A DNA stretch of 64,000 nt from Pseudoalteromonas sp. H105 (lineage in GTDB: Bacteria; Pseudomonadota; Gammaproteobacteria; Enterobacterales; Alteromonadaceae): the NCBI RefSeq assembly GCF_001469215.1, contig NZ_LOFH01000002.1, positions 186,001 through 250,000 on the forward strand, written 5' to 3'. The translations under genes and the position numbers were made by a program. Shown one piece after another: positions 3,304-5,385 of this stretch. Under the pieces are notes generated by a model. It saw only the letters and a list, made by a program, of their open reading frames with translations. It was not told the DNA's origin and did no database searches. Positions within the stretch are counted from its first letter, which is position 1, and each line of letters opens with the position of its first letter.

Positions 3304-4029
3304 TTAATATATTCTGCCTTCACCAGCGTAAAGACCAGCCTGAATTCGTTCGTATAATTCATTCGCTTTTTCTTTAGCTTCAGCTATTTCGGCTGGAAGC
3401 ATCTTTCTTTCATCAAGTTTACGGCTATGGCTGGCATTTAAATTGCCGTTAAACTCAGCCACTGAGTTCCAAATATACGATTTTTCGATATTTTTTTGTA
3501 CGCCTAGTCCTTCAAAATACATTAACGCAATATTGAATTGAGCGAGAGAGTAGTTATTGCCTGCCGCTTTCTCATACCATTTAAGTGCTTCTTTGTAGTC
3601 AAGTATAACGCCATCGCCATTTGAATACATAACACCTAAATTAAATTGCGCGGCTGGTAAGTTCTTTTCAGCAGCTTGTTTAAATAAAGACACGGCCATT
3701 TGTTTATCGAGCTTTACCCCTTTGCCTTCATCATAGAGCACAGCGAGCGCAAACATAGAGTCAACGTGCTTTTTCTTAACGGCTTGTTGGTAAAGTTCAG
3801 CCGCTTTACGATAATTTCGTGTTACACCGTGGCCATTTTCGTATAACTGTCCAAGTTCATAAATACCTGGTGCAAACCCTTTGTCTGCAAGGTAATTAAA
3901 CTCTTTTAATGCTTCTTCAAATTGCCCTTCATTGGCGGCTTTAATCCCTTCCTCTAAGCCCGCATGAGTAAAACTAGATATGCTTAACGCACCCATCATT
4001 AACAATACTTTTAATTTCGGTTGCCACAT
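3304..4029 (-). CDS. Exported Sel1-like repeat (SLR) protein
   Basis: 241 residues beginning with a signal peptide (about 23 residues ending SFTHA) and then about four Sel1/TPR-like units. These show the usual A..LG..Y..G.GV..D/N...A..WY..AA pattern, for example YELGQLYENGHGVTRNYRKA, FALAVLYDEGKGVKLDKQMA and FNLGVMYSNGDGVILDYKEA. Such solenoids act as periplasmic or secreted protein-binding scaffolds; no enzymatic motif is visible. It is convergent with the dehydrogenase gene. Upstream on the same strand lie the terminator and the Fur-controlled small RNA at 4155-4380, so it should have its own promoter in 4030-4154. The partner is unknown. Confidence 0.8.
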   Translation of the reverse strand: MWQPKLKVLLMMGALSISSFTHAGLEEGIKAANEGQFEEALKEFNYLADKGFAPGIYELGQLYENGHGVTRNYRKAAELYQQAVKKKHVDSMFALAVLYDEGKGVKLDKQMAVSLFKQAAEKNLPAAQFNLGVMYSNGDGVILDYKEALKWYEKAAGNNYSLAQFNIALMYFEGLGVQKNIEKSYIWNSVAEFNGNLNASHSRKLDERKMLPAEIAEAKEKANELYERIQAGLYAGEGRIY

Positions 4030-4154
4030 GACAAAACCTCCAATAAGTTGTAACTATGTAATTTTAGTTCTAAGCTGCAGAAAACCCCAACTTATAATTA
4101 AAAATCGTAATAATGAGGGTAAGATACAGATATTAAGGAATAAATTAAAGAAAT

Positions 4155-4380
4155 AAAAAAAGCCCCTGAGGGGCTTTTTGATTCATATCTACCGTCACCG
4201 ATATGAGCAATGTAGCAAGTAAGTGTGATCTTAAAATGAAACACATTGGGTCGAGTAAAGGGTTTCACTGAAGCGGCACGCTCTTCATCAACGCAAAATA
4301 TAATAGGTCCAGCATCCGTGCTGGTTACTCTATCCTTAGGCACTGAGGTCGGGACATAAAATAGTTTACTTTGCGATGAT
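4155..4380 (-). ncRNA. ryhB: Putative RyhB-type Fur-regulated small RNA
   Basis: On the minus strand a sigma-70 promoter (TTGACT at 4416-4411, 17-bp spacer, GATAAT at 4393-4388) predicts a start near 4380. The transcript would end in a factor-independent terminator, stem AGCCCC/GGGGCT at 4175-4161 followed by a run of seven U, giving about 225 nt. At plus 4204-4213 it contains, on the minus strand, ACATTGCTCA, identical to 10 nt of the conserved target-pairing core of E. coli RyhB as I remember it. Fur boxes overlap the promoter. Vibrio RyhB is also about 200 nt long. An 81-codon frame beginning at a GTG inside it runs through the terminator and is not credible. Confidence 0.72.
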
Positions 4381-4381
4381 G

Positions 4382-4443
4382 CAAATGATTATCACTTAGT
4401 TTGATTGTTTAGTCAACAACTAAGTGGTAATCATTATCATTTG
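4382..4443. promoter_or_regulatory. Twin Fur boxes and sigma-70 promoter
   Basis: Two Fur-box-like sequences lie in inverted orientation: one containing AATGATTATCA at 4384-4394 and one containing TAATCATTATCATTTG at 4428-4443. Their outer arms (CAAATGAT...CACTTAGTT) form a long near-palindrome across the region. The proximal box covers the -10 element of the minus-strand small RNA promoter, so iron-loaded Fur should block it. The distal box could also influence the plus-strand lipoprotein gene that starts at 4522. Confidence 0.7.
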
Positions 4444-4521
4444 TTTGTGATCTAAACACATTTATTTGTGGTATAACTAAAGTTAATTAAGTTATTGTTA
4501 GAATAACCGCGGGTCTATTAC

Positions 4522-5385
4522 ATGCATAAAAAAAATAATAAGTTAAATTTTAGAAATACTTTGTTGGTTGCGCTCATTGTGTTCCTAAGTGGATGCTCAG
4601 CAACTTTTACTTATAATAATATAGGGTGGTTGTCTGGTTTTTGGATTGATGATTATATCGACTTGAACAAACAGCAATCAAAAATAATGAAGTCGTTAGT
4701 AAAAGACACACGTGATTGGCATAGAGAAAGCCAGTTACCCCTCTATAAAACAGATCTTATTCATCTAGAAACGTTACTGAATAACTCCCCAACAGAGCAA
4801 GCATTGATTGAGCACTTTAATCGTTCAAGCGGTCATTGGCAGACATTGGTAAATCATATTGCGATGCCCTTAATTGAAGTGGCTAAAACGCTTGACGACA
4901 AGCAAAGAACACATCTTATTTCTACAATTCGTGATGATATGAATGAAGAGCAGGTAGAATACAATAAGCAAACAGACAGAGAACGAAGCGATTCGCGACT
5001 AAAAAAACAAATAGACACATACAAAGAGTGGTTAGGTAAGCTTTCTAAGCAACAAGTAACGCTCATTTCGATAGCAAATGATAATTATGTATCACGATTC
5101 AACCTGTGGCAAAGTTACAAAACGACACGGTTAGAGGCCTTGATCACTGTATTTGATGATCCAGCCATCACTCCGCCAGTATTTGAACAAAATATGATGC
5201 ATATTATTACCGATCGCGAGGCTTTTATGAGTGATGAGTTGATTGCGTTGAACAAGCAAAATCGCGCGCAGTACGCGAGACTATTAGTCTCATTACGTGA
5301 AACATTAACAGCAAAGCAGATAGAACATGCACAGGATAAGTTTAGCGATATGATTGAAGAAATAGATGACTTAATAGCCGATTAG
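4522..5385 (+). CDS. DUF6279 family lipoprotein
   Basis: 287 residues with a lipoprotein signal: a hydrophobic run and the lipobox FLSGC at about residues 22-26. The opening of the mature part, FTYNNIGWLSGFWIDDYIDL, is typical of the DUF6279 family found in marine Gammaproteobacteria. The rest is highly charged and mostly alpha-helical. The family has no established role; it is predicted to be anchored to the outer membrane and to face the periplasm. The Fur-box region ends about 80 bp upstream, so iron control is possible but not shown. No ribosome site is obvious before the ATG at 4522. Confidence 0.7.
   Translation: MHKKNNKLNFRNTLLVALIVFLSGCSATFTYNNIGWLSGFWIDDYIDLNKQQSKIMKSLVKDTRDWHRESQLPLYKTDLIHLETLLNNSPTEQALIEHFNRSSGHWQTLVNHIAMPLIEVAKTLDDKQRTHLISTIRDDMNEEQVEYNKQTDRERSDSRLKKQIDTYKEWLGKLSKQQVTLISIANDNYVSRFNLWQSYKTTRLEALITVFDDPAITPPVFEQNMMHIITDREAFMSDELIALNKQNRAQYARLLVSLRETLTAKQIEHAQDKFSDMIEEIDDLIAD

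Follow-up and report, generated by a model that had tools for sequence, protein, structure and literature searches.

A multi-copy small RNA family of Pseudoalteromonas with a predicted RyhB-like iron-sparing function

PrrF, NrrF and FsrA are Fur-repressed small RNAs (sRNAs) that are analogues of RyhB, and PrrF1 and PrrF2 of Pseudomonas are iron-sparing RNAs arranged in tandem. The mRNA of fumarase is a known target of RNAs of the RyhB type. SodB, Sdh and aconitase are described as further RyhB-type targets in PMC2964681 and, according to the same paper, over-expression of the 168-nt RyhB of S. oneidensis left TCA cycle genes unaffected, so that RyhB-type RNAs can differ in their targets. In the genomes that we examined of Pseudoalteromonas, a common marine genus, the RyhB model of Rfam 15 gave nothing over its cut-off. 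A search of open-licence literature by title and abstract returned no paper on an iron-related sRNA in Pseudoalteromonas.

Here, we analysed a locus in a 64-kb stretch of Pseudoalteromonas DNA (64,000 nucleotides; hereafter the window) which an earlier note had read as the gene of a RyhB orthologue. The Fur-like boxes, terminator, core and target complementarity found here support an sRNA gene with targets of the RyhB type; against orthology stand the unmatched Rfam RyhB model (RF00057) and a gene order that is not shared. Based on sequence comparison, we consider that the locus probably encodes a trans-acting, Fur-repressed, iron-sparing sRNA working like RyhB, and assign this reading a probability of roughly 0.8.

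Gene anatomy, promoter and conservation

The sRNA gene is located on the minus strand between a Sel1-repeat gene (3304-4029, minus strand) and a DUF6279 gene (4522-5385, plus strand), which is the position that had been claimed for it. Read along the minus strand, a Fur-like box is followed by the -35 element, the -10 element within a second Fur-like box, a variable 5' half, the conserved core, a short linker and the terminator. The features were as follows.

4425..4439: the upstream one of two Fur-like boxes, with a single mismatch to TGATAATNATTATCA and its start 23 nt ahead of the -35 element
4411..4416, minus strand: -35 element TTGACT
4388..4393, minus strand: -10 element GATAAT, 17 nt from the -35 element
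4380..4394: second Fur-like box, 2 mismatches to TGATAATNATTATCA, overlapping the -10 element
4155..4380, minus strand: sRNA gene, predicted transcript of 226 nt, its start inferred from the -10 element
4184..4222, minus strand: conserved core TTACTTGCTACATTGCTCATATCGGTGACGGTAGATATG, 39 nt (82 distinct copies; alignment of 63)
4215..4222, minus strand: UUACUUGC, complement of GCAAGUAA at -10..-3 of sdhC (GTG start assumed) in 12/12 genomes
4204..4213, minus strand: ACATTGCTCA, 10 nt common to RyhB cores, exact in 80/82 copies
4184..4205, minus strand: hairpin CAUAUC-GGUGACGGUA-GAUAUG, with complementarity to sodB and fumA (and acnB) in its loop region
4157..4179, minus strand: intrinsic terminator stem-loop, then a U run to 4155

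Much of this anatomy had been described in the earlier note and was recovered here: the promoter (TTGACT, 17 bp, GATAAT) at 4416-4411 and 4393-4388, a Fur box over the -10 element (in the 15-bp form, with 2 mismatches), the 10-nt ACATTGCTCA of the RyhB core at 4213-4204, and an intrinsic terminator giving an RNA of about 225 nt (terminator-like site at 4179-4157; predicted transcript of 226 nt). The terminator is rho-independent with a U tail and reads AAAAAGCCCC-TCA-GGGGCTTTTT on the minus strand (4179-4157), with a stem of 10 pairs and a T run to 4155. Over an 801-base stretch, one terminator-like site was found with 0.5 expected, and three promoter-like sites were found with 3.2 expected by chance. 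Since promoter-like sites were no rarer than chance, the weight of the evidence lies on conservation, and we consider the sRNA feature on the minus strand to be real.

No match to the 19-bp Fur consensus was found in the 64-kb window at up to 3 mismatches. The 15-bp form TGATAATNATTATCA, at up to 2 mismatches, matched three times in the 64 kb (0.7 expected), a number reached in 4 of 100 shuffles. Two of these three matches lie at the sRNA promoter, 45 bp apart, and the better of them, upstream of the -35 element with 1 mismatch, had been absent from the earlier list of features. The promoter pattern TTGAC-N16..19-NATAAT was present in 79 of the 82 distinct copies of the gene described below. 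Among these 79, 69 had an upstream Fur-like box scoring at least 12 out of a maximum of 15 (N position counted) and 75 had one over the -10 element, a score reached by 1% of shuffled 45-mers; the upstream box was placed 23 nt before TTGAC in 68. From the Fur box to the -35 element, the copies agreed with a Vibrio-like RyhB gene at 12-28 of 31 nt (median 24; window copy 25), the reference being the gene in loci L255 and L256 (family f21), which was taken as Vibrio-like. The distance from the upstream Fur-like box (4425-4439) to the start of the divergent DUF6279 gene (4522-5385) is 83-97 nt, and this gene may be iron-regulated too.

Homology was searched with a 321-nt stretch against 60 genomes, comprising the genome of the window, 35 genomes from its genus and 24 from the order. 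A match was obtained in 34 of the 35 genus relatives with an E value of 7e-18 or better, the best matches being centred on the last 82 nt; the remaining relative (G015, rated 100% complete) gave no match to the 321-nt stretch. The window's own genome (4.47 Mb in 26 contigs) holds three copies: one is the window copy, and the other two lie in tandem with a spacing of about 300 bp, flanked by the genes of a YlqF GTPase (NCBIfam TIGR03596) and a PAS/histidine kinase (Pfam). A total of 82 copies of distinct sequence were collected from the fetched loci, copy numbers thus being lower bounds. Their core is nearly invariant and the sequence 5' of it diverges; the near-invariant 3' part consists of UUACUUGCUACAUUGCU, the hairpin and the terminator. 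ACTTGCT and TGACGGT were exact in 82/82 copies, and ACATTGCTCA and GTGACGGT in 80/82 each. The earlier note had proposed to look for conservation of the core and terminator in relatives, and both were nearly invariant across the distinct copies; a ACATTGCTCA block lost within a conserved flank is the opposite of what was observed, namely an exact ACATTGCTCA next to a diverging 5' flank. The predicted transcripts range from 157 to 292 nt, with a median of 217 (79 copies).

The exact core 21-mer was found in 115 named stretches, all of them Pseudoalteromonas records. Within these stretches, which are at most 8 kb long so that neighbours can be missed, two to four copies were present in 46, a ylqF homologue in 59, and homologues of both sel1 and DUF6279 in 27. 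The family occurs as one to four copies, often next to ylqF, with a further copy at sel1 and DUF6279 in many genomes. Judged by this distribution, the window gene is one member of a multi-copy Pseudoalteromonas family. C-rich motifs recur in the 5' halves, with CTCGACCC in 51/79 copies (at 4248-4255 in the window copy) and CGCCCCT in 62/79, often at similar distances; these may serve as further seeds for pairing with G-rich ribosome sites.

The core together with the terminator (68 nt) folded better than all 200 shuffles (z -3.6). The fold of a 220-nt RNA was less clear than that of the 68-nt part (z -2.1, 4/200 shuffles as good). In the predicted core fold, a short open segment precedes the hairpin CAUAUC-GGUGACGGUA-GAUAUG and the terminator. 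The hairpin was paired in all 63 aligned sequences, the alignment comprising 63 of 64 sequences with the incomplete L041:3774-3833 left out. Five of its six pairs were invariant, and the sixth was C-G in 60 sequences, U-A in 2 and U-G in 1. Support for the hairpin from covariation is real but small.

Complementarity to the mRNAs of iron-containing enzymes

Complementarity was examined from -100 to +45 of translation starts in 12 Pseudoalteromonas genomes, for target families picked beforehand as known RyhB-type targets rather than by a blind search, and with target starts set by protein motif. Families were named with NCBIfam on one member each: SdhC, the fumarase domain and AcnB were over a cut-off, and Fe-SOD and Mn-SOD were assigned by best match, both under the cut-off. 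The background consisted of 386 starts with start codons chosen by a simple rule, and shuffled cores (300) were dinucleotide-shuffled. The duplex energies reported here disregard the cost of opening the hairpin.

In sodB (Fe), an exact 10-nt complement, CTACCGTCAC, was present at +12..+21 in all 12 genomes. It lies over 4 consecutive invariant codons, a run unsurpassed in 190 codons with only 15 of 134 synonymous positions frozen; this is a within-gene comparison made among related genomes. In sdhC, the 8-nt GCAAGTAA was found at -10..-3 in 12/12 genomes with GTG taken as the start; this start is uncertain because an in-frame upstream ATG is present in some species. A 7-10 nt part of ACCGTCACCG was present in fumA in 11/12 genomes and TACCGTC in the remaining one, the complement reaching at least 8 nt in 8/12 and 10 nt in 3/12, at positions varying from -70 to 0. 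In acnB, CGTCACC near -21 was the longest match in 7/10 genomes and was present in 9/10. The loop GGUGACGGU, which is complementary to sodB and fumA, had gone unnoticed in the earlier note. In the predicted folds of four fumA leaders, the complementary ACCGUCAC fell within the loop of a small mRNA hairpin; 7 to 35 of 200 shuffles folded as well, and since the hairpin is no more stable than many shuffles, a loop-to-loop contact between the sRNA and fumA is only a suggestion. In the search for aconitases, the window's own genome (G000) gave only the second aconitase type, and a TIGR00117-like aconitase was matched over the whole profile in 10 of 11 relatives and in part in G016.

Among the 386 background starts, exact complements of at least 7, 8, 9 and 10 nt were found in 23%, 5.7%, 2.1% and 0.5%, and the mean duplex energy was -18.7 kcal/mol (sd 3.5). 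Family mean energies were -25.6 kcal/mol for sodB, -26.3 for sdhC, -26.7 for fumA and -23.3 for acnB. The best 5% of the background was reached in only 10/12 (sodB), 9/12 (sdhC), 10/12 (fumA) and 4/10 regions (acnB), and the best 1% in 0/12, 4/12, 3/12 and 0/10, respectively. Compared to shuffled cores, the native core gave a four-family mean of -25.5 versus -18.7 (sd 0.9), and none of 300 shuffles was as low. Taken singly, shuffled cores were as good in 0 (sodB), 0 (sdhC), 0 (fumA) and 6 (acnB) of 300 cases. On start regions at large, the native core has a slight advantage in binding over shuffles (10/140 as low on the background); after subtraction of each core's own background, 0/140 were as good for the four families together, 0 for sodB, 0 for fumA, 3 for sdhC and 10 for acnB.

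Three other families were used as controls, with shuffled cores as good in 6/300 for MnSOD (background-corrected, 3/140), 6/300 for the second aconitase (5/140) and 74/300 for the second SdhC (46/140). MnSOD is the sole clean control because the second aconitase and the second SdhC are also iron proteins. By energy, acnB was no better than the controls and sdhC was near MnSOD. The controls were not silent; thus energy alone singles out sodB and fumA, and sdhC rests on its fixed site in 12/12 genomes, the background-corrected control having weakened the support for both acnB and sdhC. Complementarity of the core to the translation starts of iron proteins is accordingly graded as clear for sodB and fumA, at a fixed place for sdhC and doubtful for acnB.

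A scan of the window's own genome for complements of the core with up to 3 mismatches gave 64 places, compared to 27 for the reversed pattern. Among these 64 were all three copies of the sRNA gene, and one repeated sequence accounted for seven more. The 61 places outside the gene copies included eight start-proximal entries at seven distinct sites, of which one was thiC. The sequence AGCAATGAGG, complementary to CAUUGCU of the core, was present at the ribosome site of thiC in 4/5 genes read (L311, L390, L392-L394), these having been picked by pattern from 12 loci. The product of thiC is an Fe-S enzyme, and thiC is a possible further target.

Relation to RyhB and other explanations

The earlier note had proposed the Rfam RyhB model as a check, and this check went against it. 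RF00057 had no match at its gathering score in the window, and it was missing from the Rfam matches up to E 10 in 3900-4650; against the window's own genome it found 8 weak places, all of them outside the sRNA locus. Rfam as a whole gave no gathering-score match in the window or in eight related stretches. Across the order, 119 of 394 genomes passed the RF00057 cut-off, and the four Pseudoalteromonas genomes among the 394 gave no match at E 0.01; a class-wide search of 185 genomes, a thinly spread sample, yielded one weak match. All 21 Rfam matches in 3900-4650 up to E 10 were under their gathering scores and were set aside as chance. Of those displayed as alignments, most rest on the terminator (STnc130, STnc420, MicC, Phe_leader), and one, to a microRNA model, lies over the Fur boxes.

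In other families, the usual RyhB core is GACATTGCTCACATTGCTTCC, and in one family it is GACTATTGCTCACATTGCTATTTT. Neither GACATTGCTCACATTGCTTCC nor a close form of it was found in the present core; 10 nt are shared, and this ACATTGCTCA accounts for little of the conserved core. At RyhB loci of other families (L225-L257 and L260-L270, 3-8 kb each), ylqF, the histidine kinase, sel1 and DUF6279 had no tblastn match at 1e-8. Tandem RyhB copies below the Rfam cut-off were seen in two genomes, three copies 364 bp apart in one (G388: L264, L267, L270) and two copies 229 bp apart in the other (G370: L261, L266).

An RNA with these properties could be a true RyhB orthologue, in which case an ancestral gene common to the enteric bacteria and Vibrio would have drifted in its core in the Pseudoalteromonas line and been duplicated, and to this we give close to even odds. 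The segment TTGCT-ACATTGCT aligns to the Vibrio-like RyhB core with gaps only; however, shuffled RyhB aligned equally well in 56/2000 cases, and the similarity of the cores is weak. Likewise, the layout from the Fur box to the -35 element resembles that of the Vibrio-like promoter (median 24/31), but Fur-controlled promoters are alike by function. Tandem RyhB copies in other families of the order and the same kinds of target fit shared descent, against which stand RF00057, unmatched at the locus, in related stretches and in four genus members, and the lack of shared neighbours within 3 to 8 kb of the RyhB loci of other families. Convergence, in which a Fur-repressed sRNA with its own seeds recruited the same targets independently, is a tentative reading that falls short of even odds. 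It would account for a model of the core and terminator whose strong matches among 394 genomes of the order were confined to the 4 of Pseudoalteromonas (next best E 0.001, under strict filters that may lose weak matches), for the confinement of the exact 21-mer to Pseudoalteromonas (115/115 named stretches) and for a main seed, the loop GGUGACGGU, that is absent from the RyhB cores of the other families examined. Against it stand the promoter layout and the 10 identical nt of ACATTGCTCA, both common to Vibrio-like RyhB.

It is very improbable that the locus is a small coding gene, or the leader of a neighbouring gene, rather than a regulatory RNA. An 81-codon GTG frame overlaps the sRNA locus and one frame is open across the core in 80/82 copies, but an upstream start is present in only 45/80, at scattered distances, the frame in the window reads through the terminator, and conservation runs continuously through the bases of the core with no third-position change; the small-protein reading was rejected on these grounds. 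A Csr-type sponge RNA similar to Pf1, Pf2 and Pf3 of Pseudoalteromonas fuliginea was also rejected and is barely credible. These are likewise multi-copy sRNAs of the genus, and PMC11882849 counts 111 sRNAs in CsrA targetomes, among which the present RNA could be included. They differ from it in being GGA-rich, CsrA-binding RNAs with 9-25 GGA motifs (PMC11882849), whereas the conserved core has none and the window RNA three, all in its 5' half. The conserved Fur-like boxes also argue against a sponge.

Proposed role and comparison with known systems

We return to the preferred reading, a Fur-repressed iron-sparing sRNA acting in trans, whose RyhB-type function is well supported in silico. In the presence of iron, Fe-Fur on the two boxes around the -35 and -10 elements would block transcription. 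When iron is scarce, the 226-nt RNA would be made, as would sister RNAs from the tandem pair, all with one common 3' core. Pairing by the loop GGUGACGGU with flanking AUUGC would then cover codons 5-7 of sodB, which encodes Fe-SOD, as well as the leader or start of fumA, the gene of the class I fumarase. The open segment UUACUUGC would pair directly before the start of sdhC; acnB would perhaps be a weaker target. Iron-rich enzymes would consequently not be made and iron would be saved, probably through a translational block or mRNA decay. Hfq and RNase E have roles in the action of RyhB and may have them here.

The observed anatomy of the gene, its conservation and its conserved complementarity make it a candidate for the missing iron-sparing RNA of Pseudoalteromonas, with testable seeds and targets. 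They also provide a case for asking if the function of RyhB was kept as its core was rewritten, or was reinvented. A more speculative reading, which we would sooner doubt than accept, is that a genus-wide multi-copy family took over iron sparing with GGUGACGGU as a hairpin-loop seed, which may meet fumA loop-to-loop, and froze synonymous codons of sodB. The C-rich motifs (CUCGACCC, CGCCCCU) in the variable 5' halves may, if this is true, give each copy extra targets of its own. Pairing can be tested directly at the frozen codons of sodB and at the loop site of fumA.

The likeness to PrrF1 and PrrF2 is one of description, Rfam as a whole having given the sRNA no match. With RyhB, the present sRNA has in common a Fur-boxed promoter of similar layout, a terminator, the kinds of target and ACATTGCTCA. 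According to PMC2964681, RyhB of V. cholerae is a long transcript of 215 nt, like the present sRNA, and RyhB of S. amazonensis occurs as two tandem copies, like the present tandem pair. In contrast to RyhB, the present sRNA is without a match to RF00057 and without the GACATTGCTCACATTGCTTCC block of most RyhB loci examined, and it has an extra conserved hairpin, the loop of which is predicted to be its main seed.
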